From positions 16,283,001 through 16,347,000 of the forward strand of contig CM050659.1 in assembly GCA_027574665.1 (NCBI GenBank): a DNA stretch of 64,000 nucleotides. The letters run 5' to 3'. Position 1 is the stretch's first letter. Every line of letters starts with the position of its first letter. A program made the translations under genes and the position numbers. The notes under the pieces were generated by a model, which did not search any database, had not been told where the DNA came from, and was given only the letters and a program-made list of their open reading frames with translations. Source of the DNA: Rhynochetos jubatus. Its lineage: Eukaryota > Chordata > Aves > Eurypygiformes > Rhynochetidae. Shown piece by piece: positions 1 to 64,000 of the stretch.

Positions 1-13
1 GTCGGCAACTTCT

Positions 14-35
14 AGGGTTAGGGTTAGGGTTAGGG
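14..35 (+). repeat. Telomeric core AGGG(TTAGGG)3, standard form
   Basis: Four GGG tracts separated by TTA sit inside the monomer and recur about every 177 bp through the window. Four tracts is the minimum for an intramolecular G-quadruplex, and this 22-nt form equals the commonly studied human telomeric quadruplex sequence. The core also holds three overlapping copies of the TRF1 Myb-domain half-site YTAGGGTTR. The G-rich strand is the plus strand throughout. That these cores fold or bind shelterin in the cell is inference. Confidence 0.95.
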
Positions 36-140
36 TCCGGAGAACCAGAAAGCCCACAGCTCCAGGGATAATTGGGATTGCAAAGGCCTGCCAAGAGGAG
101 CACGACACTGCACAGACATGGCTCCTTCCCCTGCTTTCCT
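36..140. repeat. Conserved non-telomeric body of the monomer
   Basis: This part, from TCCGGAGAACC through the CTCCTTCCCC segment, is almost unchanged across the array. Its main alternatives are a linked set (ATATTTGGGAC, AAAGACC, CATGAC), a CACGAC/CACAAC switch and a CAGACATGG/CCGACATGG switch. It contains the short internal direct repeat GGGATAATTGGGAT. I find no known promoter element, pol III box or protein domain in it. Low variation here compared with the tail could mean constraint, or simply fewer CpG and homopolymer sites. Confidence 0.8.
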
Positions 141-152
141 AGCCAGAACCCA

Positions 153-179
153 GGGGGGGCCGTGGCCAGAAACCGCGGT
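153..179. repeat. Variable G run and CpG-rich tail
   Basis: This is the hypervariable part of the monomer. The G run is usually seven but ranges from about five to eight, with interrupted forms such as AGGTGGGG, GGGAGGGG and GGGGGGTCC. Next come alternatives GTGGCC, ATGCCC, TTCGCC, AGGCCC and TTGCCC, then GAAACCGCGG. These alternatives define the subfamilies used here to set domain boundaries. One-base changes in the G run are the main cause of reading-frame shifts between neighbouring units. Confidence 0.85.
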
Positions 180-324
180 CGGCAACTTCTAGGGTTAGGG
201 TTAGGGTTAGGGTCCGGAGAACCAGAAAGCCCACAGCTCCAGGGATAATTGGGATTGCAAAGGCCTGCCAAGAGGAGCACGACACTGCACAGACATGGCT
301 CCTTCCCCAGCTTTCCTAGCCAGA

Positions 325-2436
325 ACCCAGGTGGGGCCATGCCCAGAAACCGCGGTCGGCAACTTCTAGGGTTAGGGTTAGGGTTAGGGTCCGGAGAACC
401 AGAAAGCCCACAGCTCCAGGGATAATTGGGATTGCAAAGGCCTGCCAAGAGGAGCACAACACTGCACAGACATGGCTCCTTCCCCTGCTTTCCTAGCCAG
501 AACCCGGGGGGGGCCATGCCCGGAAACCGCGGTCGGCAACTTCTAGGGTTAGGGTTAGGGTTAGGGTCCAGAGAACCAGAAAGCCCACAGCTCCAGGGAT
601 AATTGGGATTGCAAAGGCCTGCCAAGAGGAGCACGACACTGCACAGACATGGCTCCTTCCCCTGCTTTCCTAGCCAGAACCCAGGGGGGGCCGTCGCCGG
701 AAACCGCGGTCGGCAACTTCTAGGGTTAGGGTTAGGATTAGGGTCTAGAGAACCAGAAAGCCCACAGCTCCAGGGATAATTGGGATTGCAAAGGCCTGCC
801 AAGAGGAGCACGACACTGCACCGACATGGCTCCTTCCCCTGCTTTCCTAGCCAGAACCCAGGGGGGGCCGTGGCCGGAAACCGCGGTCGGCAACTTCTAG
901 GGTTAGGGTTAGGGTCCGGAGAACCAGAAAGCCCACAGCTCCAGGGATAATTGGGATTGCAAAGGCCTGCCAAGAGGAGCACGACACTGCACAGACATGG
1001 CTCCTTCCCCAGCTTTCCTAGCCAGAACCCAGGGGGGGCCAGGCCCAGAAACCGCTGTCGGCAACTTCTAGGGTTAGGGTTAGGGTTAGGGTCCGGAGAA
1101 CCAGAAAGCCCACAGCTCCAGGGATAATTGGGATTGCAAAGGCCTGCCAAGAGGAGCACGACACTGCACAGACATGGCTCCTTCCCCTGCTTTCCTAGCC
1201 AGAACCGAGGGGGGGCCGTGGCCGGAAACCGCGGTTGGCAACTTCTAGGGTTAGGGTTAGGGTTAGGGTCCGGAGAACCAGAAAGCCCACAGCTCCAGGG
1301 ATAATTGGGATTGCAAAGGCCTGCCAAGAGGAGCACAACACTGCACAGACATGGCTCCTTCCCCAGCTTTCCTAGCCAGAACCCAGGTGGGGCCATGCCC
1401 AGAAACCGCGGTCGGCAACTTCTAGGGTTAGGGTTAGGGTTAGGGTCCGGAGAACCAGAAAGCCCACAGCTCCAGGGATAATTGGGATTGCAAAGGCCTG
1501 CCAAGAGGAGCACAACACTGCACAGACATGGCTCCTTCCCCTGCTTTCCTAGCCAGAACCCGGGGGGGGCCATGCCCGGAAACCGCGGTCGGCAACTTCT
1601 AGGGTTAGGGTTAGGGTTAGGGTCCAGAGAACCAGAAAGCCCACAGCTCCAGGGATAATTGGGATTGCAAAGGCCTGCCAAGAGGAGCACGACACTGCAC
1701 AGACATGGCTCCTTCCCCTGCTTTCCTAGCCAGAACCCAGGGGGGGCCGTCGCCGGAAACCGCGGTCGGCAACTTCTAGGGTTAGGGTTAGGATTAGGGT
1801 CTAGAGAACCAGAAAGGCCACAGCTCCAGGGATAATTGGGATTGCAAAGGCCTGCCAAGAGGAGCACGACACTGCACAGACATGGCTCCTTCCCCTGCTT
1901 TCCTAGCCAGAACCCAGGGGGGGCCGTGGCCGGAAACCGCGGTCGGCAACTTCTAGGGTTAGGGTTAGGGTCCGGAGAACCAGAAAGCCCACAGCTCCAG
2001 GGATAATTGGGATTGCAAAGGCCTGCCAAGAGGAGCACGACACTGCACAGACATGGCTCCTTCCCCAGCTTTCCTAGCCAGAACCCAGGGGGGGCCAGGC
2101 CCAGAAACCGCTGTCGGCAACTTCTAGGGTTAGGGTTAGGGTTAGGGTCCGGAGAACCAGAAAGCCCACAGCTCCAGGGATAATTGGGATTGCAAAGGCC
2201 TGCCAAGAGGAGCACGACACTGCACAGACATGGCTCCTTCCCCTGCTTTCCTAGCCAGAACCGAGGGGGGGCCGTGGCCGGAAACCGCGGTTGGCAACTT
2301 CTAGGGTTAGGGTTAGGGTTAGGGTCCGGAGAACCAGAAAGCCCACAGCTCCAGGGATAATTGGGATTGCAAAGGCCTGCCAAGAGGAGCACAACACTGC
2401 ACAGACATGGCTCCTTCCCCAGCTTTCCTAGCCAGA
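325..2436 (+). repeat. 1,056-bp hexamer HOR, two tandem copies
   Basis: Copies span 325-1,380 and 1,381-2,436, six monomers each, one of them 171 bp. Shared marks lie exactly 1,056 bp apart: the AGGTGGGGCC tail (325 and 1,381), the core variant GGATTAGGGTCTAGAG (TCTAGAG at 744 and 1,800), the CGCTGTCGG tail, and the CGGTTGGC tail. I see two single-base differences: CACCGACATGG against CACAGACATGG, and AAAGCCCAC against AAAGGCCAC. The same hexamer returns near 42.8, 44.5 and 52.4 kb. Confidence 0.88.
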
Positions 2437-2479
2437 ACCCAGGGGGGGCCGTGGCCGGAAACCGCGGTCGGCAACTTCT

Positions 2480-5400
2480 AGGGTTAGGGTTAGGGTCCGG
2501 AGAACCAGAAAGCCCACAGCTCCAGGGATAATTGGGATTGCAAAGGCCTGCCAAGAGGAGCACGACACTGCACAGACATGGCTCCTTCCCCTGCTTTCCT
2601 ATCCAGAACCCGGGGGGGGCCGTGGCCGGAAATCGCGGTCGGCAACTTCTAGGGTTAGGGTTAGGGTTAGGGTCCGGAGAACCAGAAAGCCCACAGCTCC
2701 AGGGATAATTGGGATTGCAAAGGCCTGCCAAGAGGAGCACGACACTGCACCGACATGGCTCCTTCCCCAGCTTTCCTAGCCAGAACCTGGGGGGGGCCGT
2801 GGCCGGAAACCGCGGTCGGCAACTTCTAGGGTTAGGGTTAGGGTTAGGGTCCGGAGAACCAGAAAGCCCACAGCTCCAGGGATAATTGGGATTGCAAAGG
2901 CCTGCCAAGAGGAGCACGACACTGCACAGACATGGCTCCTTCCCCTGCTTTCCTAGCCAGAACCCAGGGGGGTCCGTGGCCAGAAACCGCGGTCGGCAAC
3001 TTCTAGGGTTAGGGTTAGGGTTAGGGTCCGGAGAACCAGAAAGCCCACAGCTCCAGGGATAATTGGGATTGCAAAGGCCTGCCAAGAGGAGCACGACACT
3101 GCACAGACATGGCTCCTTCCCCAGCTTTCCTAGCCAGAACCCAGGTGGGGCCATGCCCAGAAACCGCGGTCGGCAACTTCTAGGGTTAGGGTTAGGGTTA
3201 GGGTCCGGAGAACCAGAAAGCCCACAGCTCCAGGGATAATTGGGATTGCAAAGGCCTGCCAAGAGGAGCACGACACTGCACCGACATGGCTCCTTCCCCT
3301 GCTTTCCTAGCCAGAACCCGGGGGGGGCCGTGGCCGGAAACCGCGGTCGGCAACTTCTAGGGTTAGGGTTAGGGTTAGGGTCCGGAGAACCAGAAAGCCC
3401 ACAGCTCCAGGGATAATTGGGATTGCAAAGGCCTGCCAAGAGGAGCACGACACTGCACAGACATGGCTCCTTCCCCAGCTTTCCTAGCCAGAACCCAGGT
3501 GGGGCCATGCCCAGAAACCGCGGTCGGCAACTTCTAGGGTTAGGGTTAGGGTTAGGGTCCGGAGAACCAGAAAGCCCACAGCTCCAGGGATAATTGGGAT
3601 TGCAAAGGCCTGCCAAGAGGAGCACGACACTGCACCGACATGGCTCCTTCCCCTGCTTTCCTAGCCAGAACCCGGGGGGGGCCGTGGCCGGAAACCGCGG
3701 TCGGCAACTTCTAGGGTTAGGGTTGGGGTTAGGGTCCGGAGAACCAGAAAGCCCACAGCTCCAGGGATAATTGGGATTGCAAAGGCCTGCCAAGAGGAGC
3801 ACGACACTGCACCGACATGGCTCCTTCCCCTGCTTTCCTAGCCAGAACCCAGGCGGGGCCGTGGCCGGAAACCGCGGTCGGCAACTTCTAGGGTTAGGGT
3901 TAGGGTTAGGGTCCGGAGAACCAGAAAGCCCACAGCTCCAGGGATAATTGGGATTGCAAAGGCCTGCCAAGAGGAGCACGACACTGCACCGACATGGCTC
4001 CTTCCCCTGCTTTCCTAGCCAGAACCCAGGGGGGGCCATGCCCAGAAACCGCGGTCGGCAACTTCTAGGGTTAGGGTTAGGGTTAGGGTCCGGAGAACCA
4101 GAAAGCCCACAGCTCCAGGGATAATTGGGATTGCAAAGGCCTGCCAAGAGGAGCACGACACTGCACAGACATGGCTCCTTCCCCTGCTTTCCTAGCCAGA
4201 ACCCGGGGGGTCCGTGGCCGGAAACCGCGGTCGGCAACTTCTAGGGTTAGGGTTAGGGTCCGGAGAACCAGAAAGCCCACAGCTCCAGGGATAATTGGGA
4301 TTGCAAAGGCCTGCCAAGAGGAGCACGACACTGCACAGACATGGCTCCTTCCGCAGCTTTCCTAGACAGAACCCAGGGGGGGGCCGTGGCCGGAAATCGC
4401 GGTCGGCAACTTCTAGGGTTAGGGTTAGGGTTAGGGTCCGGAGAACCAGAAAGCCCACAGCTCCAGGGATAATTGGGATTGCAAAGGCCTGCCAAGAGGA
4501 GCACGACACTGCACAGACATGGCTCCTTCCCCTGCTTTCCTAGCCAGAACCCAGGGGGGGCCGTGGCCAGAAACCGCGGTCGGCAACTTCTAGGGTTAGG
4601 GTTAGGGTTAGGGTCCGGAGAACCAGAAAGCCCACAGCTCCAGGGATAATTGGGATTGCAAAGGCCTGCCAAGAGGAGCACGACACTGCACAGACATGGC
4701 TCCTTCCCCTGCTTTCCTAGCCAGAACCCAGGGGGGGCCGTGGCCGGAAACCGCGGTCGGCAACTTCTAGGGTTAGGGTTAGGGTTAGGGTCCGGAGAAC
4801 CAGAAAGCCCACAGCTCCAGGGATAATTGGGATTGCAAAGGCCTGCCAAGAGGAGCACGACACTGCACAGACATGGCTCCTTCCCCAGCTTTCCTAGCCA
4901 GAACCCAGGTGGGGCCATGCCCAGAAACCGCTGTCGGCAACTTCTAGGGTTAGGGTTAGGGTTAGGGTCCGGAGAACCAGAAAGCCCACAGCTCCAGGGA
5001 TAATTGGGATTGCAAAGGCCTGCCAAGAGGAGCACGACACTGCACCGACATGGCTCCTTCCCCTGCTTTCCTAGCCAGAACCCGGGGGGGGCCGTGGCCG
5101 GAAACCGCGGTCGGCAACTTCTAGGGTTAGGGTTGGGGTTAGGGTCCGGAGAACCAGAAAGCCCACAGCTCCAGGGATAATTGGGATTGCAAAGGCCTGC
5201 CAAGAGGAGCACGACACTGCACAGACATGGCTCCTTCCCCTGCTTTCCTAGCCAGAACCCAGGGGGGGCCGTGGCCGGAAACCGCGGTCGGCAACTTCTA
5301 GGGTTAGGGTTAGGGTTAGGGTCCGGAGAAGCAGAAAGCCCACAGCTCCAGGGATAATTGGGATTGCAAAGGCCTGCCAAGAGGAGCACGACACTGCACA

Positions 5401-11134: not shown

Positions 11135-11162
11135 AGGGTTAGGGTTAGGGTTAGGGTTAGGG
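11135..11162 (+). repeat. Expanded telomeric core, five GGG tracts (183-bp monomer)
   Basis: One extra TTAGGG gives a 28-nt core and a 183-bp unit. The unit carries the linked marks CATGGATCC, TTCGCC and CGGTTGGC. The same combination recurs in all other 183-bp units in the window, so the extra repeat probably arose once and spread by amplification. Confidence 0.92.
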
Positions 11163-16334: not shown

Positions 16335-16445
16335 ATAATTGGGATTGCAAAGGCCTGCCAAGAGGAGCACGACACTGCACCGACATGGCTCCTTCCCCTG
16401 CTTTCATACCAGAACCCAGGGGGGGCCGTGGCCGGAAACCGCGGT

Positions 16446-26760: not shown

Positions 26761-28514
26761 TTAGGGTCCGGAGAACCAGAAAGCCCACAGCTCCAGGGAT
26801 AATTGGGATTGCAAAGGCCTGCCAAGAGGAGCACGACACTGCACAGACATGGCTCCTTCCCCTGCTTTCCTAGCCAGAACCCAGGGGGGGGCCTTCGCCG
26901 GAAACCGCGGTCGGCAACTTCTAGGGTTAGGGTTAGGGTCAGGGTCCGGAGAACCAGAAAGCCCACAGCTCCAGGGATAATTGGGATTGCAAAGGCCTGC
27001 CAAGAGGAGCACGACACTGCACAGACATGGCTCCTTCCCCTGCTTTCCTAGCCAGAATCCAGGGGGGGCCGTGGCCGGAAACCGCGGTCGGCAACTTCTA
27101 GGGTTAGGGTTAGGGTTAGGGTCCGGAGAACCAGAAAGCCCACAGCTCCAGGGATAATTGGGATTGCAAAGGCCTGCCAAGAGGAGCACGACACTGCACA
27201 GACATGGCTCCTTCCCCTGCTTTCCTAGCCAGAACCCAGGGGGGGCCGTGGCTGGAAACCGCGGTCGGCAACTTCTAGGGTTAGGGTTAGGGTTAGGGTC
27301 CGGAGAACCAGAAAGCCCACAGCTCCAGGGATAATTGGGATTGCAAAGGCCTGCCAAGAGGAGCACGACACTGCACAGACATGGCTCCTTCCCCCGCTTT
27401 CCTAGCCAGAACCCAGGGGGGGCCATAACCAGAAACCGCGGTCGGCAACTTCTAGGGTTAGGGTTAGGGTTAGGGTCCGGAGAACCAGAAAGCCCACAGC
27501 TCCAGGGATAATTGGGATTGCAAAGGCCTGCCAAGAGGAGCACGACACTGCACCGACATGGCTCCTTCCCCAGCTTTCCTATCCAGAACCCGGGAGGGGC
27601 CGTGGCCGGAAACCGCGGTCGGCAACTTCTAGGGTTAGGGTTAGGGTTAGGGTCCGGAGAACCAGAAAGCCCACAGCTCCAGGGATAATTGGGATTGCAA
27701 AGGCCTGCCAAGAGGCGCATGACACTGCACCGACATGGCTCCCTCCCCAGCTTTCCTAGCCAGAACCCAGGGGGGGCCGTGGCCGGAAACCGCGGTCGGC
27801 AACTTCTAGGGTTAGGGTTAGGGTTAGGGTCCGGAGAACCAGAAAGCCCACAGCTCCAGGGATAATTGGGATTGCAAAGGCCTGCCAAGAGGAGCACGAC
27901 ACTGCACAGACATGGCTCCTTCCCCAGCTTTCCTAGCCAGAACCCAGGGGGGGCCGTGGCCGGAAACCGCGGTCGGCAACTTCTAGGGTTAGGGTTAGGG
28001 TTAGGGTCCGGAGAACCAGAAAGCCCACAGCTCCAGGGATAATTGGGATTGCAAAGGCCTGCCAAGAGGAGCACGACACTGCACAGACATGGCTCCTTCC
28101 CCTGCTTTCCTAGCCAGAACCCAGGGGGGGCCGTGGCTGGAAACCGCGGTCGGCAACTTCTAGGGTTAGGGTTAGGGTTAGGGTCCGGAGAACCAGAAAG
28201 CCCACAGCTCCAGGGATAATTGGGATTGCAAAGGCCTGCCAAGAGGAGCACGACACTGCACCGACATGGCTCCTTCCCCAGCTTTCCTAGCCAGAACGCA
28301 GGAGGGGCCGTGGCCGGAAACCGCGGTCGGCAACTTCTAGGGTTAGGGTTAGGGTTAGGGTCCGGAGAACCAGAAAGCCCACAGCTCCAGGGATAATTGG
28401 GATTGCAAAGGCCTGCCAAGAGGCGCATGACACTGCACCGACATGGCTCCCTCCCCAGCTTTCCTAGCCAGAACTCAGGGGGGGCCGTGGCCGGAAACCG
28501 CGGTCGGCAACTTC

Positions 28515-28524
28515 TAGGGTTAGG
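28515..28524 (+). repeat. Shortest telomeric core, two GGG tracts (165-bp monomer)
   Basis: The core here is only AGGGTTAGGG before TCCGG, giving a 165-bp unit. It is the only such unit I found. It keeps one YTAGGGTTR half-site and cannot form an intramolecular four-tract quadruplex by itself. Confidence 0.92.
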
Positions 28525-28660
28525 GTCCGGAGAACCAGAAAGCCCACAGCTCCAGGGATAATTGGGATTGCAAAGGCCTGCCAAGAGGAGCACGACACTG
28601 CACCGACATGGCTCCTTCCCCAGCTTTCCTAGCCAGAACCCAGGGGGGGCCATTCCCAGA

Positions 28661-31297
28661 AACCGCGGTCGGCAACTTCTAGGGTTAGGGTTAGGGTTAG
28701 GGTCCGGAGAACCAGAAAGCCCACAGCTCCAGGGATAATTGGGATTGCAAAGGCCTGCCAAGAGGAGCACGACACTGCACAGACATGGCTCCTTCCCCTG
28801 CTTTCCTAGCCAGAACCCAGGGGGGGCCGTGGCCGGAAACCGCGGTCGGCAACTTCTAGGGTTAGGGTTAGGGTTAGGGTCCGGAGAACCAGAAAGCCCA
28901 CAGCTCCAGGGATAATTGGGATTGCAAAGGCCTGCCAAGAGGAGCACGACACTGCACAGACATGGCTCCTTCCCCAGCTTTCCTAGCCAGAACCCAGGGC
29001 AGGCCGTGGCCGGAAACCGCGGTCGGCAACTTCTAGGGTTAGGGTTAGGGTTAGGGTCCGGAGAACCAGAAAGCCCACAGCTCCAGGGATAATTGGGATT
29101 GCAAAGGCCTGCCAAGAGGAGCACGACACTGCACAGACATGGCTCCTTCCCCTGCTTTCCTAGCCAGAACCCGGGAGGGGCCGTGGCCGGAAACCGCGGT
29201 CGGCAACTTCTAGGGTTAGGGTTAGGGTTAGGGTCCGGAGAACCAGAAAGCCCACAGCTCCAGGGATAATTGGGATTGCAAAGGCCTGCCAAGAGGAGCA
29301 CGACACTGCACAGACATGGCTCCTTCCCCCGCTTTCCTAGCCAGAACTCAGGGGGGGCCGTGGCTGGAAACCGCGGTCGGCAACTTCTAGGGTTAGGGTT
29401 AGGGTTAGGGTCCGGAGAACCAGAAAGCCCACAGCTCCAGGGATAATTGGGATTGCAAAGGCCTGCCAAGAGGAGCACGACACTGCACAGACATGGCTCC
29501 TTCCCCTGCTTTCCTAGCCAGAACCCAGGGGGGGCCTTCGCCGGAAACCGCGGTCGGCAACTTCTAGGGTTAGGGTTAGGGTTAGGGTCCGGAGAACCAG
29601 AAAGCCCACAGCTCCAGGGATAATTGGGATTGCAAAGGCCTGCCAAGAGGAGCACGACACTGCACCGACATGGCTCCTTCCCCAGCTTTCCTAGCCAGAA
29701 CCTGGGGGGGGCCGTTGCAGGAAACCGCGGTCGGCAACTTCTAGGGTTAGGGTTAGGGTTAGGGTCCGGAGAACCAGAAAGCCCACAGCTCCAGGGATAA
29801 TTGGGATTGCAAAGGCCTGCCAAGAGGAGCACTACACTGCACAGACATGGCTCCTTCCGCAGCTTTCCTAGCCAGAGCCCAGGGGGGGCCGTGCCCGGAA
29901 ACCGCGGTCGGCAACTTCTAGGGTTAGGGTTAGGGTTAGGGTCCGGAGAACCAGAAAGCCCACAGCTCCAGGGATAATTGGGATTGCAAAGGCCTGCCAA
30001 GAGGAGCACGACACTGCACAGACATGGCTCCTTCCCCTGCTTTCCTAGCCAGAACCCAGGGGGGGCCGTGGCCGGAAACCGCGGTCGGCAACTTCTAGGG
30101 TTAGGGTTAGGGTTAGGGTCCGGAGAACCAGAAAGCCCACAGCTCCAGGGATAATTGGGATTGCAAAGGCCTGCCAAGAGGAGCACGACACTGCACAGAC
30201 ATGGCTCCTTCCCCAGCTTTCCTAGCCAGAACCCAGGGCAGGCCGTGGCCGGAAACCGCGGTCGGCAACTTCTAGGGTTAGGGTTAGGGTTAGGGTCCGG
30301 AGAACCAGAAAGCCCACAGCTCCAGGGATAATTGGGATTGCAAAGGCCTGCCAAGAGGAGCACGACACTGCACAGACATGGCTCCTTCCCCTGCTTTCCT
30401 AGCCAGAACCCGGGAGGGGCCGTGGCCGGAAACCGCGGTCGGCAACTTCTAGGGTTAGGGTTAGGGTTAGGGTCCGGAGAACCAGAAAGCCCACAGCTCC
30501 AGGGATAATTGGGATTGCAAAGGCCTGCCAAGAGGAGCACGACACTGCACAGACATGGCTCCTTCCCCCGCTTTCCTAGCCAGAACTCAGGGGGGGCCGT
30601 GGCTGGAAACCGCGGTCGGCAACTTCTAGGGTTAGGGTTAGGGTTAGGGTCCGGAGAACCAGAAAGCCCACAGCTCCAGGGATAATTGGGATTGCAAAGG
30701 CCTGCCAAGAGGAGCACGACACTGCACAGACATGGCTCCTTCCCCTGCTTTCCTAGCCAGAACCCAGGGGGGGCCTTCGCCGGAAACCGCGGTCGGCAAC
30801 TTCTAGGGTTAGGGTTAGGGTTAGGGTCCGGAGAACCAGAAAGCCCACAGCTCCAGGGATAATTGGGATTGCAAAGGCCTGCCAAGAGGAGCACGACACT
30901 GCACCGACATGGCTCCTTCCCCAGCTTTCCTAGCCAGAACCTGGGGGGGGCCGTTGCAGGAAACCGCGGTCGGCAACTTCTAGGGTTAGGGTTAGGGTTA
31001 GGGTCCGGAGAACCAGAAAGCCCACAGCTCCAGGGATAATTGGGATTGCAAAGGCCTGCCAAGAGGAGCACTACACTGCACAGACATGGCTCCTTCCGCA
31101 GCTTTCCTAGCCAGAGCCCAGGGGGGGCCGTGCCCGGAAACCGCGGTCGGCAACTTCTAGGGTTAGGGTTAGGGTTAGGGTCCGGAGAACCAGAAAGCCC
31201 ACAGCTCCAGGGATAATTGGGATTGCAAAGGCCTGCCAAGAGGAGCACGACACTGCACAGACATGGCTCCTTCCCCTGCTTTCCTAGCCAGAACCCA
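28661..31297 (+). repeat. 1,239-bp heptamer HOR, two copies plus a partial third
   Basis: Copies are about 28,661-29,899 and 29,900-31,138, with the match running on to about 31,297. Marks 1,239 bp apart include CAGGGCAGGCC, GGGAGGGGCC, AACTCAGG with GTGGCTGG, TTCGCC, CCTGGGG with CCGTTGCAGG, GCACTACACTG (ACTACAC at 29,831 and 31,070) and GCCAGAGCCC. I found no difference between the copies by eye. Either the event is very recent, or the assembly should be checked here. Confidence 0.87.
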
Positions 31298-34200
31298 GGT
31301 GGGGCCTTCGCCGGAAACCGCGGTCGGCAACTTCTAGGGTTAGGGTTAGGGTTAGGGTCCGGAGAACCAGAAAGCCCACAGCTCCAGGGATAATTGGGAT
31401 TGCAAAGGCCTGCCAAGAGGAGCACGACACTGCACAGACATGGCTCCTTCCCCTGCTTTCCTAGAGAGAGCCCGGGGGGGGGCCGTGGCCGGAAACCGCG
31501 GTTGGCAACTTCTAGGGTTAGGGTTAGGGTTAGGGTTCGGAGAACCAGAAAGCCCACAGCTCCAGGGATAATTGGGATTGCAAAGGCCTGCCAAGAGGAG
31601 CACGACAGTGCACAGACATGGCTCCTTCCCCAGCTTTCCTAGCCAGAACCCGGGAGGGGCCGTGGCCGGAAACCGCGGTCGGCAACTTCTAGGGTTAGGG
31701 TTAGGGTTAGGGTCCGGAGAACCAGAAAGCCCACAGCTCCAGGGATAATTGGGATTGCAAAGGCCTGCCAAGAGGAGCACGACACTGCACAGACATGGCT
31801 CCTTCCCCTGCTTTCCTAGCCAGAACCCGGGGGGGGCCGTGGCCGGAAACCGCGGTCGGCAACTTCTAGGGTTAGGGTTAGGGTTAGGGTCTGGAGAACC
31901 AGAAAGCCCACAGCTCCAGGGATAATTGGGATTGCAAAGGCCTGCCAAGAGGAGCACGACACTGCACAGACATGGCTCATTCCCCAGCTTTCCTAGCCAG
32001 AACCCAGGGCAGGCCGTGGCCGGAAACCGCGGTCGGCAACTTCTAGGGTTAGGGTTAGGGTTAGGGTCCGGAGAACCAGAAAGCCCACAGCTCCAGGGAT
32101 AATTGGGATTGCAAAGGCCTGCCAAGAGGAGCACGACACTGCACTGAAATGGCTCCCTCCCCAGCTTTCCTAGCCAGAACTCAGGGGGGGCCGTGGCCGG
32201 AAACCGCGGTCGGCAACTTCTAGGGTTAGGGTTAGGGTTAGGGTCCGGAGAACCAGAAAGCCCACAGCTCCAGGGATAATTGGGATTGCAAAGGCCTGCC
32301 AAGAGGAGCACGACACTGCACAGACATGGCTCCTTCCCCAGATTTCCTAGCCAGAACCCAGTGCAGGCCGTGGCCGGAAACCGCGGTCGGCAACTTCTAG
32401 GGTTAGGGTTAGGGTTAGGGTCCGGAGAACCAGAAAGCCCACAGCTCCAGGGATAATTGGGATTGCAAAGGCCTGCCAAGAGGAGCACGACACTGCACAG
32501 ACATGGCTCCTTCCCCTGCTTTCCTAGCCAGAACCCGGGAGGGGCCGTGGCCGGAAACCGCGGTCGGCAACTTCTAGGGTTAGGGTTAGGGTTAGGGTCC
32601 GGAGAACCAGAAAGCCCACAGCTCCAGGGATAATTGGGATTGCAAAGGCCTGCCAAGAGGAGCACGACACTGCACCGACATGGCTCCTTCCCCAGCTTTC
32701 CTAGCCAGAACCCGGGGGGGGCCGTTGCCGGAAACCGCGGTCGGCAACTTCTAGGGTTAGGGTTAGGGTTAGGGTCCGGAGAACCAGAAAGCCCACAGCT
32801 CCAGGGATAATTGGGATTGCAAAGGCCTGCCAAGAGGAGCATGACACTGCACAGACATGGCTCCTTCCCCAGCTTTCCTAGCCAGAGCCCAGGGGGGGCC
32901 GTGCCCGGAAACCGCGGTCGGCAACTTCTAGGGTTAGGGTTAGGGTTAGGGTCCGGAGAACCAGAAAGCCCACAGCTCCAGGGATAATTGGGATTGCAAA
33001 GGCCTGCCAAGAGGAGCACGACACTGCACAGACATGGCTCCTTCCCCTGCTTTCCTGGCCAGAACCCGCGGGGGGCCGTGGCCGGAAACCGCGGTCGGCA
33101 ACTTCTAGGGTTAGGGTTAGGGTTAGGGTCCGGAGAACCAGAAAGCCCACAGCTCCAGGGATAATTGGGATTGCAAAGGCCTGCCAAGAGGAGCACGACA
33201 CTGCACAGACATGGCTCCTTCCCCTGCTTTCCTAGAGAGAGCCCGGGGGGGGGCCGTGGCCGGAAACCGCGGTTGGCAACTTCTAGGGTTAGGGTTAGGG
33301 TTAGGGTTCGGAGAACCAGAAAGCCCACAGCTCCAGGGATAATTGGGATTGCAAAGGCCTGCCAAGAGGAGCACGACACTGCACAGACATGGCTCCTTCC
33401 CCTGCTTTCCTAGCCAGAACCCGGGAGGGGCCGTGGCCGGAAACCGCGGTTGGCAACTTCTAGGGTTAGGGTTAGGGTTAGGGTCCGGAGAACCAGAACG
33501 CCCACAGCTCCAGGGATAATTGGGATTGCAAAGGCCTGCCAAGAGGAGCACGACACTGCACAGACATGGCTCCTTCCCCTGCTTTCCTAGCCAGAACCCA
33601 GGGGGGGCCTTCGCCGGAAACCGCGGTCGGCAACTTCTAGGGTTAGGGTTAGGGTTAGGGTCCGGAGAACCAGAAAGCCCACAGCTCCAGGGATAATTGG
33701 GATTGCAAAGGCCTGCCAAGAGGAGCACGACACTGCACAGACATGGCTCCTTCCCCCGCTTTCCTAGCCAGAACTCAGGGGGGGCCGTGGCTGGAAACCG
33801 CGGTCGGCAACTTCTAGGGTTAGGGTTAGGGTTAGGGTCCGGAGAACCAGAAAGCCCACAGCTCCAGGGATAATTGGGATTGCAAAGGCCTGCCAAGAGG
33901 AGCACGACACTGCACAGACATGGCTCCTTCCCCTGCTTTCCTAGCCAGAACCCAGGGGGGGCCTTCGCCGGAAACCGCGGTCGGCAACTTCTAGGGTTAG
34001 GGTTAGGGTTAGGGTCCGGAGAACCAGAAAGCCCACAGCTCCAGGGATAATTGGGATTGCAAAGGCCTGCCAAGAGGAGCACGACACTGCACAGACATGG
34101 CTCCTTCCCCAGCTTTCCTAGCCAGAACCCGGGGGGGGCCGTTGCCGGAAACCGCGGTCGGCAACTTCTAGGGTTAGGGTTAGGGTTAGGGTCCGGAGAA

Positions 34201-45269: not shown

Positions 45270-46660
45270 GGTTAGGGTTAGGGTTAGGGTCCGGAGAACC
45301 AGAAAGCCCACAGCTCCAGGGATAATTGGGATTGCAAAGGCCTGCCAAGAGGAGCACGACACTGCACAGACATGGCTCCTTCCCCTGCTTTCCTAGCCAG
45401 AACCCAGGGGGGGCCGTGGCCGGAAACCGCGGTTGGCAACTTCTAGGGTTAGGGTTAGGGTTAGGGTCCGGAGAACCAGAAAGCCCACAGCTCCAGGGAT
45501 AATTGGGATTGCAAAGGCCTGCCAAGAGGAGCACAACACTGCACAGACATGGCTCCTTCCCCAGCTTTCCTAGCCAGAACCCAGGGGGGGCCGTGGCCGG
45601 AAACCGCGGTCGGCAACTTCTAGGGTTAGGGTTAGGGTCCGGAGAACCAGAAAGCCCACAGCTCCAGGGATAATTGGGATTGCAAAGGCCTGCCAAGAGG
45701 AGCACGACACTGCACAGACATGGCTCCTTCCCCTGCTTTCCTAGCCAGAACCCGGGTGGTCCGTGGCCGGAAACCGCGGTCGGCAACTTCTAGGGTTAGG
45801 GTTAGGGTCCGGAGAACCAGAAAGCCCACAGCTCCAGGGATAATTGGGATTGCAAAGGCCTGCCAAGAGGAGCACGACACTGCACAGACATGGCTCCTTC
45901 CCCTGCTTTCCTATCCAGAACCCGGGGGGGGCCGTGGCCGGAAATCGCGGTCGGCAACTTCTAGGGTTAGGGTTAGGGTTAGGGTCCGGAGAACCAGAAA
46001 GCCCACAGCTCCAGGGATAATTGGGATTGCAAAGGCCTGCCAAGAGGAGCACGACACTGCACAGACATGGCTCCTTCCCCTGCTTTCCTAGCCAGAACCC
46101 AGGGGGGGCCGTGGCCGGAAACCGCGGTTGGCAACTTCTAGGGTTAGGGTTAGGGTTAGGGTCCGGAGAACCAGAAAGCCCACAGCTCCAGGGATAATTG
46201 GGATTGCAAAGGCCTGCCAAGAGGAGCACAACACTGCACAGACATGGCTCCTTCCCCAGCTTTCCTAGCCAGAACCCAGGGGGGGCCGTGGCCGGAAACC
46301 GCGGTCGGCAACTTCTAGGGTTAGGGTTAGGGTCCGGAGAACCAGAAAGCCCACAGCTCCAGGGATAATTGGGATTGCAAAGGCCTGCCAAGAGGAGCAC
46401 GACACTGCACAGACATGGCTCCTTCCCCTGCTTTCCTAGCCAGAACCCGGGGGGTCCGTGGCCGGAAACCGCGGTCGGCAACTTCTAGGGTTAGGGTTAG
46501 GGTCCGGAGAACCAGAAAGCCCACAGCTCCAGGGATAATTGGGATTGCAAAGGCCTGCCAAGAGGAGCACGACACTGCACAGACATGGCTCCTTCCCCTG
46601 CTTTCCTATCCAGAACCCGGGGGGGGCCGTGGCCGGAAATCGCGGTCGGCAACTTCTAGG
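45270..46660 (+). repeat. 695-bp tetramer HOR, two tandem copies
   Basis: Copies are about 45,270-45,965 and 45,965-46,660. The shared order is a CGGTTGGC tail, a CACAAC unit of 171 bp, a GGTCC-tailed 171-bp unit, and a CTATCCAG unit with AAATCGCGG. The step of 695 bp equals two 171-bp units, one 177-bp and one 176-bp unit. One visible difference is CCCGGGTGGTCC against CCCGGGGGGTCC. Confidence 0.8.
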
Positions 46661-49600
46661 GTTAGGGTTAGGGTTAGGGTCCGGAGAACCAGAAAGCCCA
46701 CAGCTCCAGGGATAATTGGGATTGCAAAGGCCTGCCAAGAGGAGCACGACACTGCACCGACATGGCTCCTTCCCCAGCTTTCCTAGCCAGAACCCAGGGG
46801 GGGCCGTGGCCGGAAACCGCGGTCGGCAACTTCTAGGGTTAGGGTTAGGGTTAGGGTCCGGAGAACCAGAAAGCCCACAGCTCCAGGGATAATTGGGATT
46901 GCAAAGGCCTGCCAAGAGGAGCACGACACTGCACAGACATGGCTCCTTCCCCTGCTTTCCTAGCCAGAACCCAGGGGGGGCCGTGGCCAGAAACCGCGGT
47001 CGGCAACTTCTAGGGTTAGGGTTAGGGTTAGGGTCCGGAGAACCAGAAAGCCCACAGCTCCAGGGATAATTGGGATTGCAAAGGCCTGCCAAGAGGAGCA
47101 CGACACTGCACAGACATGGCTCCTTCCCCAGCTTTCCTAGCCAGAACCCAGGTGGGGCCATGCCCAGAAACCGCGGTCGGCAACTTCTAGGGTTAGGGTT
47201 AGGGTTAGGGTCCGGAGAACCAGAAAGCCCACAGCTCCAGGGATAATTGGGATTGCAAAGGCCTGCCAAGAGGAGCACGACACTGCACCGACATGGCTCC
47301 TTCCCCTGCTTTCCTAGCCAGAACCCGGGGGGGGCCGTGGCCGGAAACCGCGGTCGGCAACTTCTAGGGTTAGGGTTGGGGTTAGGGTCCGGAGAACCAG
47401 AAAGCCCACAGCTACAGGGATAATTGGGATTGCAAAGGCCTGCCAAGAGGAGCACGACACTGCACCGACATGGCTCCTTCCCCAGCTTTCCTAGCCAGAA
47501 CCCGGGGGTGTCCGTGGCCGGAAACCGCGGTCGGCAACTTCTAGGGTTAGGGTTAGGGTCCGGAGAACCAGAAAGCCCACAGCTCCAGGGATAATTGGGA
47601 TTGCAAAGGCCTGCCAAGAGGAGCACGACACTGCACCGACATGGCTCCTTCCCCTGCTTTCCTAGCCAGAACCCGGGGGGGGCCGTGGCCGGAAACCGCG
47701 GTCGGCAACTTCTAGGGTTAGGGTTAGGGTTAGGGTCCGGAGAACCAGAAAGCCCACAGCTCCAGGGATAATTGGGATTGCAAAGGCCTGCCAAGAGGAG
47801 CACGACACTGCACCGACATGGCTCCTTCCCCTGCTTTCCTAGCCAGAACCCAGGGGGGGCCATGCCCAGAAACCGCGGTCGGCAACTTCTAGGGTTAGGG
47901 TTAGGGTTAGGGTCCGGAGAACCAGAAAGCCCACAGCTCCAGGGATAATTGGGATTGCAAAGGCCTGCCAAGAGGAGCACGACACTGCACAGACATGGCT
48001 CCTTCCCCAGCTTTCCTAGCCAGAACCCAGGGGGGGCCATGCCCGGAAACCGCGGTCGGCAACTTCTAGGGTTAGGGTTAGGGTTAGGGTCCGGAGAACC
48101 AGAAAGCCCACAGCTCCAGGGATAATTGGGATTGCAAAGGCCTGCCAAGAGGAGCACGACACTGCACCAACATGGCTCCTTCCCCAGCTTTCCTAGCCAG
48201 AACCCAGGGGGGGCCGTGGCCGGAAACCGCGGTCGGCAACTTCTAGGGTTAGGGTTAGGGTTAGGGTCCGGAGAACCAGAAAGCCCACAGCTCCAGGGAT
48301 AATTGGGATTGCAAAGGCCTGCCAAGAGGAGCACGACACTGCACAGACATGGCTCCTTCCCCTGCTTTCCTAGCCAGAACCCAGGGGGGGCCGTGGCCAG
48401 AAACCGCGGTCGGCAACTTCTAGGGTTAGGGTTAGGGTTAGGGTCCGGAGAACCAGAAAGCCCACAGCTCCAGGGATAATTGGGATTGCAAAGGCCTGCC
48501 AAGAGGAGCACGACACTGCACAGACATGGCTCCTTCCCCTGCTTTCCTAGCCAGAACCCAGGGGGGGCCTTGCCCAGAAACCGCGGTCGGCAACTTCTAG
48601 GGTTAGGGTTAGGGTCCGGAGAACCAGAAAGCCCACAGCTCCAGGGATAATTGGGATTGCAAAGGCCTGCCAAGAGGAGCACGACACTGCACAGACATGG
48701 CTCCTTCCCCTGCTTTCCTAGCCAGAACCCAGGGGGGGCCGTGGCCGGAAACCGCGGTCGGCAACTTCTAGGGTTAGGGTTAGGGTTAGGGTCCGGAGAA
48801 CCAGAAAGCCCACAGCTCCAGGGATAATTGGGATTGCAAAGGCCTGCCAAGAGGAGCACGACACTGCACAGACATGGCTCCTTCCCCTGCTTTCCTAGCC
48901 ATAACCCAGGGGGGGCCGTGGCCGGAAACCGCGGTCGGCAACTTCTAGGGTTAGGGTTAGGGTTAGGGTCCTGAGAACCAGAAAGCCCACAGCTCCAGGG
49001 ATAATTGGGATTGCAAAGGCCTGCCAAGAGGAGCACGACACTGCACAGACATGGCTCCTTCCCCAGCTTTCCTAGCCAGAACCCAGGTGGGGCCATGCCC
49101 AGAAACCGCGGTCGGCAACTTCTAGGGTTAGGGTTAGGGTTAGGGTCCGGAGAACCAGAAAGCCCACAGCTCCAGGGATAATTGGGATTGCAAAGGCCTG
49201 CCAAGAGGAGCACGACACTGCACCGACATGGCTCCTTCCCCTGCTTTCCTAGCCAGAACCCGGGGGGGGCCGTGGCCGGAAACCGCGGTCGGCAACTTCT
49301 AGGGTTAGGGTTGGGGTTAGGGTCCGGAGAACCAGAAAGCCCACAGCTCCAGGGATAATTGGGATTGCAAAGGCCTGCCAAGAGGAGCACGACACTGCAC
49401 CGACATGGCTCCTTCCCCTGCTTTCCTAGCCAGAACCCAGGGGGGGCCGTGGCCGGAAACCGCGGTCGGCAACTTCTAGGGTTAGGGTTAGGGTTAGGGT
49501 CCGGAGAACCAGAAAGCCCACAGCTCCAGGGATAATTGGGATTGCAAAGGCCTGCCAAGAGGAGCACGACACTGCACAGACATGGCTCCTTCCCCAGCTT

Positions 49601-51699
49601 TCCTAGCCAGAACCCAGGGGGGGCCCGTGGCCGGAAACCGCGGTCGGCAACTTCTAGGGTTAGGGTTAGGGTTAGGGTCCGGAGAACCAGAAAGCCCACA
49701 GCTCCAGGGATAATTGGGATTGCAAAGGCCTGCCAAGAGGAGCACGACACTGCACAGACATGGCTCCTTCCCCTGCTTTCCTAGCCAGAACCTCGGGGGG
49801 GCCGTGGCCGGAAACCGCGGTCGGCAACTTCTAGGGTTAGGGTTAGGGTTAGGGTCCGGAGAACCAGAAAGCCCACAGCTCCAGGGATAATTGGGATTGC
49901 AAAGGCCTGCCAAGAGGAGCACGACACTGCACAGACATGGCTCCTTCCCCTGCTTTCCTAGCCAGAACCCGGGGGGTCCGTGGCCGGAAACCGCGGTCGG
50001 CAACTTCTAGGGTTAGGGTTAGGGTTAGGGTCCGGAGAACCAGAAAGCCCACAGCTCCAGGGATAATTGGGATTGCAAAGGCCTGCCAAGAGGAGCACAA
50101 CACTGCACCGACATGGCTCCTTCCCCTGCTTTCCTAGCCAGAACCCGGGGGGGGCCGTGGGCGGAAACCGCGGTCGGCAACTTCTAGGGTTAGGGTTAGG
50201 GTTAGGGTCTGGAGAACCAGAAAGCCCACAGCTCCAGGGATAATTGGGATTGCAAAGGCCTGCCAAGAGGAGCACGACACTGCACAGACATGGCTCCTTC
50301 ACCTGCTTTCCTAGCCAGAACCCGGGGGGTCCGTGGCCGGAAACCGCGGTCGGCAACTTCTAGGGTTAGGGTTAGGGTTAGGGTCCGGAGAACCAGAAAG
50401 CCCACAGCTCCAGGGATAATTGGGATTGCAAAGGCCTGCCAAGAGGAGCACGACACTGCACAGACATGGCTCCTTCCCCAGCTTTCCTAGCCAGAACCCA
50501 GGGGGGGCCAGGCCCAGAAACCGCTGTCGGCAACTTCTAGGGTTAGGGTTAGGGTTAGGATCCGGAGAACCAGAAAGCCCACAGCTCCAGGGATAATTGG
50601 GATTGCAAAGGCCTGCCAAGAGGAGCACGACACTGCACAGACATGGCTCCTTCCCCTGCTTTCCTAGCCAGAACTGAGGGGGGGCCGTGGCCGGAAACCG
50701 CGGTTGGCAACTTCTAGGGTTAGGGTTAGGGTTAGGGTCCGGAGAACCAGAAAGCCCACAGCTCCAGGGATAATTGGGATTGCAAAGGCCTGCCAAGAGG
50801 AGCACAACACTGCACAGACATGGCTCCTTCCCCAGCTTTCCTAGCCAGAACCCAGGGGGGGCCGTGGCCGGAAACCGCGGTCGGCAACTTCTAGGGTTAG
50901 GGTTAGGGTCCGGAGAACCAGAAAGCCCACAGCTCCAGGGATAATTGGGATTGCAAAGGCCTGCCAAGAGGAGCACGACACTGCACCGACATGGCTCCTT
51001 CCCCTGCTTTCCTAGCCAGAACCCGGGAGGGGCCGTGGCCGGAAACCGCGGTCGGCAACTTCTAGGGTTAGGGTTAGGGTTAGGGTCCGGAGAACCAGAA
51101 AGCCCACAGCTCCAGGGATAATTGGGATTGCAAAGGCCTGCCAAGAGGAGCACGACACTGCACAGACATGGCTCCTTCCCCTGCTTTCCTAGCCAGAACC
51201 CGGGGGGTCCGTGGCCGGAAACCGCGGTCGGCAACTTCTAGGGTTAGGGTTAGGGTCCGGAGAACCAGAAAGCCCACAGCTCCAGGGATAATTGGGATTG
51301 CAAAGGCCTGCCAAGAGGAGCACGACACTGCACAGACATGGCTCCTTCCCCTGCTTTCCTATCCAGAACCCGGGGGGGGCCGTGGCCGGAAATCGCGGTC
51401 GGCAACTTCTAGGGTTAGGGTTAGGGTTAGGGTCCGGAGAACCAGAAAGCCCACAGCTCCAGGGATAATTGGGATTGCAAAGGCCTGCCAAGAGGAGCAC
51501 GACACTGCACCGACATGGCTCCTTCCCCAGCTTTCCTAGCCAGAACCCAGGGGGGGCCGTGGCCGGAAACCGCGGTCGGCAACTTCTAGGGTTAGGGTTA
51601 GGGTTAGGGTCCGGAGAACCAGAAAGCCCACAGCTCCAGGGATAATTGGGATTGCAAAGGCCTGCCAAGAGGAGCACAACACTGCACAGACATGGCTCC

Positions 51700-59800: not shown

Positions 59801-62800
59801 CCCCTGCTTTCCTAGCCAGAACCCAGGGGGGGCCATGGCCGGAAACCGCGGTCGGCAACTTCTAGGGTTAGGGTTAGGGTTAGGGTCCGGAGAACCAGAA
59901 AGCCCACAGCTCCAGGGATAATTGGGTTTGCAAAGGCCTGCCAAGAGGAGCACAACACTGCACAGACATGGCTCCTTCCCCTGCTTTCCTAGCCAGAACC
60001 CAGGGGGGGCCGTGGCCGGAAACCGCGGTCGGCAACTTCTAGGGTTAGGGTTAGGGTTAGGGTCCGGAGAACCAGAAAGCCCACAGCTCCAGGGATAATT
60101 GGGATTGCAAAGGCCTGCCAAGAGGAGCACGACACTGCACAGACATGGCTCCTTCCCCTGCTTTCCTAGCCAGAACCCAGGGGGGGCCGTGGCCGGAAAC
60201 CGCGGTCGGCAACTTCTAGGGTTAGGGTTAGGGTTAGGGTCCGGAGAACCAGAAAGCCCACAGCTCCAGGGATAATTGGGATTGCAAAGGCCTGCCAAGA
60301 GGAGCACGACACTGCACCGACATGGCTCCTTCCCCTGCTTTCCTAGCCAGAACCCAGGGGGGGTCGTGGCCGGAAACCGCGGTCGGCAACTTCTAGGGTT
60401 AGGGTTAGGGTTAGGGTCCGGAGAACCAGAAAGCCCACAGCTCCAGGGATAATTGGGATTGCAAAGGCCTGCCAAGAGGAGCACGACACTGCACAGACAT
60501 GGCTCCTTCCCCTGCTTTCCTAGCCAGATCCCGGGGGGGGCCGTGGCCGGAAACCGCGGTCGGCAACTTCTAGGGTTAGGGTTAGGGTTAGGGTCCGGAG
60601 AACCAGAAAGCCCACAGCTCCAGGAATAATTGGGATTGCAAAGGCCTGCCAAGAGGAGCACGACACTGCACAGACATGGCTCCTTCCCCAGCTTTCCTAG
60701 CCAGAACCCAGGGGGGGGCCGTGGCCGGAAACCGCGGTCGGCAACTTCTAGGGTTAGGGTTAGGGTTAGGGTCCGGAGAACCAGAAAGCCCACAGCTCCA
60801 GGGATATTTGGGACTGCAAAGACCTGCCAAGAGGAGCATGACACTGCACAGACATGGCTCCTTCCCCTGCTTTCCTAGCCAGAACCCGGGGGGGGCCGTG
60901 GCCGGAAACCGCGGTCGGCAACTTCTAGGGTTAGGGTTAGGGTTAGGGTCCGGAGAACCAGAAAGCCCACAGCTCCAGGGATAATTGGGATTGCAAAGGC
61001 CTGCCAAGAGGAGCACGACACTGCACAGACATGGCTCCTTCCCCTGCTTTCCTAGCCAGAACCCAGGGGGGGCCTTCGCCGGAAACCGCGGTCGGCAACT
61101 TCTAGGGTTAGGGTTAGGGTTAGGGTCCGGAGAACCAGAAAGCCCACAGCTCCAGGGATATTTGGGACTGCAAAGACCTGCCAAGAGGAGCATGACACTG
61201 CACCAACATGGCTCCTTCCCCAGCTTTCCTAGCCAGAACCCAGGGGGGGCCGTGGCCGGAAACCGCGGTCGGCAACTTCTAGGGTTAGGGTTAGGGTTAG
61301 GGTCCGGAGAACCAGAAAGCCCACAGCTCCAGGGATAATTGGGATTGCAAAGGCCTGCCAAGAGGAGCACGACACTGCACAGACATGGCTCCTTCCCCTG
61401 CTTTCCTAGCCAGAACCCGGGAGGGGCCGTGGCCGGAAACCGCGGTCGGCAACTTCTAGGGTTAGGGTTAGGGTTAGGGTCCGGAGAACCAGAAAGCCCA
61501 CAGCTCCAGGGATAATTGGGATTGCAAAGGCCTGCCAAGAGGAGCACGACACTGCACAGACATGGCTCCTTCCCCTGCTTTCCTAGCCAGAACCCAGGGG
61601 GGGCCTTCGCCGGAAACCGCGGTCGGCAACTTCTAGGGTTAGGGTTAGGGTTAGGGTCCGGAGAACCAGAAAGCCCACAGCTCCAGGGATATTTGGGACT
61701 GCAAAGACCTGCCAAGAGGAGCATGACACTGCACCAACATGGCTCCTTCCCCAGCTTTCCTAGCCAGAACCCAGGGGGGGCCGTGGCCGGAAACCGCGGT
61801 CGGCAACTTCTAGGGTTAGGGTTAGGGTTAGGGTCCGGAGAACCAGAAAGCCCACAGCTCCAGGGATAATTGGGATTGCAAAGGCCTGCCAAGAGGAGCA
61901 CGACACTGCACAGACATGGCTCCTTCCCCTGCTTTCCTAGCCAGAACCCGGGAGGGGCCGTGGCCGGAAACCGCGGTCGGCAACTTCTAGGGTTAGGGTT
62001 AGGGTTAGGGTCCGGAGAACCAGAAAGCCCACAGCTCCAGGGATAATTGGGATTGCAAAGGCCTGCCAAGAGGAGCACGACACTGCACCGACATGGCTCC
62101 TTCCCCTGCTTTCCTAGCCAGAACCCAGGGGGGGTCGTGGCCGGAAACCGCGGTCGGCAACTTCTAGGGTTAGGGTTAGGGTTAGGGTCCGGAGAACCAG
62201 AAAGCCCACAGCTCCAGGGATAATTGGGATTGCAAAGGCCTGCCAAGAGGAGCACGACACTGCACAGACATGGCTCCTTCCCCTGCTTTCCTAGCCAGAA
62301 CACGGGGGGGGCCGTGGCCGGAAACCGCGGTCGGCAACTTCTAGGGTTAGGGTTAGGGTTAGGGTCCGGAGAACCAGAAAGCCCACAGCTCCAGGAATAA
62401 TTGGGATTGCAAAGGCCTGCCAAGAGGAGCACGACACTGCACAGACATGGCTCCTTCCCCAGCTTTCCTAGCCAGAACCCAGGGGGGGGCCGTGGCCGGA
62501 AACCGCGGTCGGCAACTTCTAGGGTTAGGGTTAGGGTTAGGGTCCGGAGAACCAGAAAGCCCACAGCTCCAGGGATATTTGGGACTGCAAAGACCTGCCA
62601 AGAGGAGCACGACACTGCACAGACATGGCTCCTTCCCCTGCTTTCCTAGCCAGAACCCGGGGGGGGCCGTGGCCGGAAACCGCGGTCGGCAACTTCTAGG
62701 GTTAGGGTTAGGGTTAGGGTCCGGAGAACCAGAAAGCCCACAGCTCCAGGGATAATTGGGATTGCAAAGGCCTGCCAAGAGGAGCACGACACTGCACAGA

Positions 62801-64000
62801 CATGGCTCCTTCCCCTGCTTTCCTAGCCAGAACCCAGGGGGGGCCTTCGCCGGAAACCGCGGTCGGCAACTTCTAGGGTTAGGGTTAGGGTTAGGGTCCG
62901 GAGAACCAGAAAGCCCACAGCTCCAGGGATATTTGGGACTGCAAAGACCTGCCAAGAGGAGCATGACACTGCACCAACATGGCTCCTTCCCCAGCTTTCC
63001 TAGCCAGAACCCAGGGGGGGTCGTGGCCGGAAACCGCGGTCGGCAACTTCTAGGGTTAGGGTTAGGGTTAGGGTCCGGAGAACCAGAAAGCCCACAGCTC
63101 CAGGGATAATTGGGATTGCAAAGGCCTGCCAAGAGGAGCACGACACTGCACAGACATGGCTCCTTCCCCAGCTTTCCTAGCCAGAACCCGGGGGGGGCCG
63201 TGGCCGGAAACCGCGGTCGGCAACTTCTAGGGTTAGGGTTAGGGTTAGGGTCCGGAGAACCAGAAAGCCCACAGCTCCAGGGATAATTGGGATTGCAAAG
63301 GCCTGCCAAGAGGAGCACGACACTGCACAGACATGGCTCCTTCCCCAGCTTTCCTAGCCAGAACCCAGGGGGGGCCGTGGCTGGAAACCGCGGTCGGCAA
63401 CTTCTAGGGTTAGGGTTAGGGTTAGGGTCCGGAGAACCAGAAAGCCCACAGCTCCAGGGATATTTGGGACTGCAAAGACCTGCCAAGAGGAGCATGACAC
63501 TGCACAGACATGGCTCCTTCCCCTGCTTTCCTAGCCAGAACTCAGGGGGGGGCCTTCGCCGGAAACCGCGGTCGGCAACTTCTAGGGTTAGGGTTAGGGT
63601 TAGGGTCCGGAGAACCAGAAAGCCCACAGCTCCAGGGATAATTGGGATTGCAAAGTCCTGCCAAGAGGAGCACGACACTGCACAGACATGGCTCCTTCCC
63701 CAGCTTTCCTAGCCAGAACCCAGGGGGGGCCTTCGCCGGAAACCGCGGTCGGCAACTTCTAGGGTTAGGGTTAGGGTTAGGGTCCGGAGAACCAGAAAGC
63801 CCACAGCTCCAGGGATAATTGGGATTGCAAAGGCCTGCCAAGAGGAGCACGACACTGCAAAGACATGGCTCCTTTCCCTGCTTTCCTAGCCAGAACCCGG
63901 GGGGGGCCGTGGCCGGAAACCGCGGTCGTCAACTTCTAGGGTTAGGGTTAGGGTTAGGGTCCGGAGAACCAGAAAGCCCACAGCTCCAGGGATAATTGGG
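53865..64000 (+). repeat. Right copy of the segmental duplication, with local expansion
   Basis: It matches 2,480-8,900 at a shift of 51,385, then 8,890-10,135 at a shift of 53,865. The 2,480-bp difference equals 14 monomers plus two bases and lies at about 60.3-62.8 kb. The copy runs off the window end inside the match. Small differences exist, such as CTTCTGCAGC near 57,683 against CTTCCCCTGC at the matching place near 6,298. Confidence 0.84.
60340..63200 (+). repeat. 1,771-bp decamer with a nested 531-bp trimer
   Basis: CAGGAATAAT, a rare form of CAGGGATAAT, is at 60,621 and 62,392, 1,771 bp apart (ten monomers plus one base). Inside the first decamer a trimer (TTCGCC unit; ATATTTGGGAC unit with CACCAACATGG; GGGAGGGGCC unit) is repeated with a 531-bp step: GATATTTGGG is at 61,158 and 61,689. 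The trimer copies are about 60,910-61,440 and 61,441-61,971. This is the material added in the right copy of the large duplication. Confidence 0.8.

Follow-up and report, generated by a model that had tools for sequence, protein, structure and literature searches.

A 177-bp satellite with an embedded TTAGGG core, probably centromeric or pericentromeric, in Rhynochetos jubatus

Why would a satellite carry a short piece of telomere in most of its units? The question is posed by a 64,000-nucleotide stretch of the Rhynochetos jubatus genome (GCA_027574665.1), here called the window, which is filled by a 177-bp satellite whose monomers join a TTAGGG core to a fixed body. The window is C14:16283001-16347000, where C1, C2 and so on denote contigs of the assembly. 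The answer favoured here, with a probability of about 0.7, is that this is an old satellite, probably centromeric or pericentromeric, in which a telomeric slot was inherited, changed by hexamer steps and homogenised. It belongs to a kind already known, in that satellites with built-in TTAGGG have been reported before (see an excerpt of PMC7348932).

Tandem Repeats Finder describes the window as a single array at 1-64000, with a period of 177, 362.4 copies and 96% matches. An anchor scan places 362 units, with 282 of the 361 spacings equal to 177 and the others at 178 (23), 176 (21), 171 (20), 170 (8), 183 (6) and 165 (1). The adjoining 10-kb pieces on both sides consist of the same satellite. 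Base composition is 59.5% G+C with a CpG observed/expected ratio of 0.45, and GAGAACCAGAAAGCCCACAG and CCTGCCAAGA are among the body stretches with the lowest per-column variation. These results bear out what a sequence-only reading had described, about 362 units spaced at 177 bp that fuse satellite and telomeric motif within a monomer near nucleosome length. The features of the window are as follows.

1..64000, + strand: 177-bp satellite array of subfamily A, 362 units without interruption (Tandem Repeats Finder, anchor scan).
14..35, + strand: first telomeric core, AGGG(TTAGGG)3, standing for the 302 exact copies in the window (sequence, word counts).
36..177, + strand: first monomer body, 3' of the core, 155 bp when bases 1-13 are added (per-column variation).
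1..2300, + strand: local duplication of six monomers, about 1,062 bp (best lag 6 for units 0-19).

The core is largely as first described, since AGGG(TTAGGG)3 occurs exactly 302 times in the window. Six further runs have five tracts, and the core of the remaining units has a lower tract number or contains point changes. When both flanks are required, one unit has two tracts, 26 have three, 296 have four and four have five. Telomeric words are confined to the + strand (TTAGGGTTAGGG 354 times, CCCTAACCCTAA never), which confirms the uniform strand. The quadruplex pattern of four GGG runs with loops of 1-7 is matched 324 times on the + strand and not at all on the - strand. By their sequence, about nine in ten units could in principle fold one intramolecular quadruplex, so that the attribution of such a core to every monomer holds for most units and is slightly too strong for all of them. 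The word YTAGGGTTR, presumably a TRF-type binding motif, occurs 1,041 times, three per unit in most units. Variation in the core is dominated by whole-hexamer change, with gaps at 2.2% as against 0.05% in the body.

How far does the family extend? Counts were made over the whole assembly of 1,331,379,947 bases in 148 contigs. A globin exon in it resembles alpha-A, in keeping with a bird: among PDB chains the best with a single globin stretch (3wr1, 1a4f and those after them) mostly bear the alpha-A label, a group made up mainly of bird proteins. Six long chains of blood-substitute type rank above them because their two globin stretches are added together. Flanking sequence also resembles CR1. 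A body word allowing up to one mismatch occurs 89,752 times, and a 21-mer common to subfamilies A, B and C occurs 119,554 times, so the family has at least that many copies; it amounts to about 21 Mb, or about 1.6% of the assembly. Arrays or array-like matches lie on 13 chromosome-scale contigs (C8, C11, C13-C16, C19-C24 and C28), with further satellite matches on C55, C122 and C128. The C14 array starts near 16.101 Mb and ends somewhere between 17.501 Mb, where satellite is still found, and 17.570 Mb, where it is not. It therefore covers about 1.4 Mb well inside a contig 25.96 Mb long. The C13 array measures about 1.5 Mb, and the matches on C16 span 0.8 Mb or more. Compact arrays with non-satellite samples on either side are found on C13, C14, C15, C16, C20, C22 and C28, and each contig shows one orientation among the array matches and samples inspected.

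The number of tracts forms a ladder. With flanks required, the assembly holds 126 two-tract, 4,618 three-tract, 48,786 four-tract, 3,373 five-tract and 66 six-tract cores, the five- and six-tract patterns having flanks slightly unlike those of the two- to four-tract patterns. Four-tract cores account for 85.6%, three-tract for 8.1% and five-tract for 5.9%; the one-tract pattern, with 15 matches as against 48 for a reversed-word control, is at chance level. Ten of the 100 two-tract matches listed lie on C2-C8. The ladder is near-symmetric around four, without a deficit below four. A threshold at the quadruplex minimum would be expected to leave few threes relative to fives; the reverse is mildly true, and the constraint expected at a four-tract minimum is thus not seen.

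Two further subfamilies have a broken last tract. The core of subfamily B, TTAGGG TTAGGG CTAGGG TTAGCG, is present in 26,627 exact copies and does not hold the four tracts of a quadruplex, and that of subfamily C, three TTAGGG followed by TTAGCG, is present in 2,551. Subfamily C begins on C8 at 25.872 Mb, and each of the five positions sampled as far as 28.0 Mb carries family sequence, a stretch of about 2.1 Mb or more in which the last tract is broken in most sampled cores. Identities are 84.8% between A and B, 83.1% between A and C and 78.8% between B and C, as computed from the A consensus, a single B unit and a single C unit. Since B and C form large arrays, such arrays do not need the perfect four-tract core, and not all of the family has it. 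Given the tract ladder and these broken-core subfamilies, the proposal that a minimal quadruplex is built into the satellite loses its support. Some subfamily C units on C8, the largest contig seen to bear an array, have the core variant TTACGCTTAGGG.

The subfamilies are also layered. On C13 the layers span 8.329-9.85 Mb: B occupies 8.329-8.336 Mb, A extends from about 8.338 to 9.82 Mb and B returns from 9.830 Mb, while samples at 8.30 and 9.9 Mb are free of satellite. Samples from C28 are non-satellite at 9.7 Mb, B at 9.85 Mb, A at 10.05 and 10.15 Mb, B at 10.25 Mb and non-satellite at the contig end. On C21, B is found at 17.3 Mb, A at 17.9 Mb and B at the end; C20 has B at 0.02 Mb and then A at 0.05-0.6 Mb, and C23 has A and then B at the contig end. 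No B-type cores are present among those examined on C14, where the array was sampled. This B-A-B layering, seen on C13, C21 and C28, is what an expansion of A within B would produce, in which case A would be the younger layer. Layered centromeric satellites have a homogeneous centre between diverged layers, and it is mainly because the B-A-B layering resembles them that a centromeric setting is preferred. As expected of a centromeric satellite, the arrays on C13, C14 and C16 are large and compact and have non-satellite DNA on either side, and the arrays may have a centromere function.

Human alpha satellite offers a parallel in organisation: it shares the nucleosome-scale monomer, megabase arrays, a homogeneous centre, diverged flanks and largely chromosome-specific variants. 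Unlike alpha satellite, the window has no array-wide higher-order repeat, the best lag differing between its segments, and no exact CENP-B box. The consensus reaches at best 6 of the 9 essential bases of the box, and a pJ-alpha-like word has no exact match in the window.

Copies outside the arrays give a view of the monomer's past. From 100 of the 89,752 body-word matches that were listed, 28 overlapping loci lie on C2-C8 and 19 were kept, yielding 72 dispersed units. Removal of 12 with a poor left-flank match left 60 that could be read confidently. Dispersed units mostly lie near lengths of 164, 170 and 176, corresponding to two, three and four hexamer slots, and the 60 comprise one unit with one slot, 24 with two, 20 with three, 14 with four and one with five. 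The number four is probably old, because 14 of the 60 have four slots, and the telomeric motif has probably long been part of the monomer.

Outside the arrays the core decays, perhaps somewhat more slowly than the body. Dispersed slots differ from TTAGGG at 98 of 1,020 sites, and body divergence over all 60 units, shifted ones included, is 571/3,720 (15.3%). The exact body word used to find loci lowers body divergence, hence units without it were compared separately: in 29 such units with up to 25 mismatches, the slot differs at 49/516 sites (9.5%) and a 62-bp body stretch at 246/1,798 (13.7%). Scoring against the best-fitting slot number lowers slot divergence in turn, and the difference in decay is small and biased both ways. 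In a body-only tree of 45 dispersed and 52 sampled array units over 120 columns, most forks of which are open, the 52 array rows form one side of a single branch, with one label change and a Shimodaira-Hasegawa-like approximate likelihood ratio test (SH-aLRT) value of 88, below the 95 mark. The array rows are short-branched, with C11 and C14 units largely apart. It is in the homogenised arrays that cores are uniformly perfect.

These observations can be placed in a sequence of steps. The monomer would have inherited a short TTAGGG slot, in which hexamers were gained or lost singly by slippage or unequal exchange. Homogenisation would then have spread the four-hexamer subfamily A through array centres, between broken-core layers, and uniform orientation would be a consequence of tandem amplification. 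An orientation shared between chromosomes, described below, could arise from exchange between non-homologous chromosomes if such exchange was tolerated only where the two arrays had the same orientation.

Several observations weigh against an old centromeric or pericentromeric satellite shaped by homogenisation. A centromeric satellite would be expected to form one array locus on every chromosome, and C11, C19 and C1-C7 depart from this. C11 has two satellite clusters 4.4 Mb apart. C19 begins and ends in satellite, in + orientation at both contig ends, which may reflect an assembly error or the presence of two separate arrays on the chromosome. C1-C7 have only 40 scattered exact 21-mer matches and no array among those listed. 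On these counts the satellite is not a universal centromere repeat, unless divergent versions on C1-C7 escape an exact word. The A zone of C13 is listed with six sporadic B-type cores. Lastly, core substitutions in the window stand at 0.31% against a body mean of 1.98%, which could reflect selection; tempering this, 12 of the 177 circular 23-bp windows are even less variable than the core.

The first alternative is that the satellite originated at chromosome ends by exchange between telomere and satellite, its orientation being a remnant of arrays that later moved inward. In 10 of 10 contigs (C8, C11, C13, C14, C15, C16, C20, C22, C24 and C28), reading the G-rich strand from 5' to 3' leads toward whichever contig end is nearer (two-sided sign test, 0.002; without C20 and C28, 8/8, 0.008). 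A true telomere has its G-rich strand oriented likewise. The rule is partly post hoc, having been spotted in some of the data that then served to test it, with C8 added later. It is based on matches and samples inspected rather than whole arrays, and sampling stopped within satellite at the C8 right edge, the C24 left edge and the C11 left side. Excluded from the ten are C19, where one end agrees and the other does not; C21 and C23, whose ends lie inside satellite and which would both agree; and the short contigs C55, C122 and C128, of which two agree and one disagrees.

An origin at chromosome ends would also account for the position of the C20 and C28 arrays, about 0.02 and 0.06 Mb from the contig end. 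However, the contig ends of C20 and C28 have no telomere repeats and are possibly not chromosome ends, and the other eight arrays lie 3.3-14.6 Mb from the nearer end. Contig ends may in general differ from chromosome ends, the support for the latter being the CCCTAA repeats near the start of C14 alone. Old dispersed copies, moreover, mostly have two to four hexamers instead of longer telomeric blocks. The orientation equally fits same-way-round exchange, and would follow either from such exchange between non-homologous chromosomes or from descent from a subterminal array. Overall, an origin at chromosome ends appears unlikely. Mouse minor satellite also has one polarity relative to the chromosome arms; mouse chromosomes are telocentric, whereas the arrays here are mostly interior and the motif itself is telomeric. 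As to the contig starts sampled, C14:1-5000 and C17:1-250 read N, and C14:5001-8000 contains CCCTAA repeats with 64 doublet matches.

The second alternative is that selection keeps the four-tract core for quadruplex folding or shelterin recruitment, the array serving as a sink or protector for telomere proteins. Of the 86,147 cores counted in A, B and C together, 52,225 are perfect and have at least four tracts. Most window units carry three TRF-type sites, the perfect-core subfamily A occupies the central layer, core substitutions in the window are few, and in dispersed copies without the exact search word the slots are a little less decayed than the body. Excerpts from the literature report shelterin at certain interstitial telomeric sites. 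According to PMC9693754, heterochromatic blocks of telomeric repeats could be bound by shelterin proteins, and mammalian satellites can contain telomeric repeats; PMC6410037 reports TRF1 and TRF2 at some of the short interstitial sites in human, varying with site length and conservation. Binding of TRF1 or TRF2 to the satellite cores is plausible. Still, there is no cliff at the quadruplex minimum, units with three tracts (4,618) being at least as frequent as those with five (3,373). Subfamily B, with its broken fourth tract, has 26,627 copies, and most sampled cores in the C stretch on C8 are broken as well. Selection for the four-tract core is accordingly rather improbable.

A more elaborate scenario, and quite a speculative one, is that the perfect core gave subfamily A an advantage, through telomere-protein binding or exchange with short-arm telomeres, by which it replaced B in the middle of arrays and brought a telomere-like orientation to fixation on all these chromosomes. 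If true, a centromere-region satellite would be spreading by borrowing the telomere's own signal. That each array is a degenerate telomeric block marking a chromosome fusion is very improbable: telomeric words do lie inside chromosomes, but the window has no long pure (TTAGGG)n block by Tandem Repeats Finder (the longest hexamer array is 30 bp, 5 copies), a fixed 155-bp body separates the cores, and one family recurs on 13 chromosome-scale contigs with a single orientation per contig in the matches and samples seen.

How does the old satellite favoured here compare with described systems? The suggestion that it is an undescribed system does not hold, as the turtle study PMC7348932, in excerpt, cites TTAGGG as sometimes a component of a larger satellite, with reference to Liangouzov et al. 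2002 (by its title, on the chaffinch) and to rodents. The same excerpt describes interstitial telomeric repeats in birds as relatively common and mostly centromeric or pericentromeric. According to an excerpt of PMC9693754, telomere fluorescence in situ hybridisation in birds usually gives terminal signals only, and one of PMC8687609 reports two nightingales without interstitial telomeric signal. The satellite of the chaffinch (Fringilla coelebs), known by title, consists like the window of monomers with short TTAGGG clusters, a likeness at the level of description. The window does consist of tandem monomers, nearly all of which have a short TTAGGG cluster, as in the chaffinch type. Vertebrate heterochromatic interstitial telomeric sequences (het-ITS) likewise place TTAGGG inside chromosomes, often in centromeric or pericentromeric positions and possibly bound by shelterin, as far as the excerpts describe them; they are large telomeric-repeat blocks, in contrast to cores of about 22 bp inside a 177-bp unit. 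Six monomer-body words had no match in the literature searched, and no 177-bp bird satellite was found in the bird satellite literature among the matches listed; in the bird satellitome papers inspected, 177 appears at most inside reference entries.

Other searches of the window were negative within their scope. Its first 2 kb has no Rfam match at E up to 1, the folding of one monomer into hairpins is not better than that of shuffles on either strand (z +1.3 and +2.0), and a body 20-mer is found in no stretch of either the prokaryote or the viral contig collections. Long open frames are present on the - strand at window positions 26761-31557 (1,598 aa) and 46436-49750 (1,104 aa), the consensus having a frame without stops. 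They are probably due to chance, since 177 is divisible by three (59 codons) and one frame is free of stops. Elsewhere in the assembly, C4:79184788-79185482 contains runs of TTAGGG repeats with short interruptions between them, among the matches listed.

The satellite has practical consequences. Subfamily A by itself contributes about 1.25 Mb of embedded TTAGGG-type DNA. It holds about 55,730 of the 66,375 exact four-tract words (84%) in an assembly from which a good deal of terminal telomere may be missing. For a bird of this kind, interior satellite would probably add contaminating signal to telomere probes, telomere-length quantitative PCR and TRF mapping. The perfect and broken cores of A, B and C constitute a natural experiment on shelterin recruitment or quadruplexes in heterochromatin. 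The orientation rule is a testable regularity on exchange between non-homologous chromosomes, and together with the layering of perfect cores within broken ones it is what most merits following.

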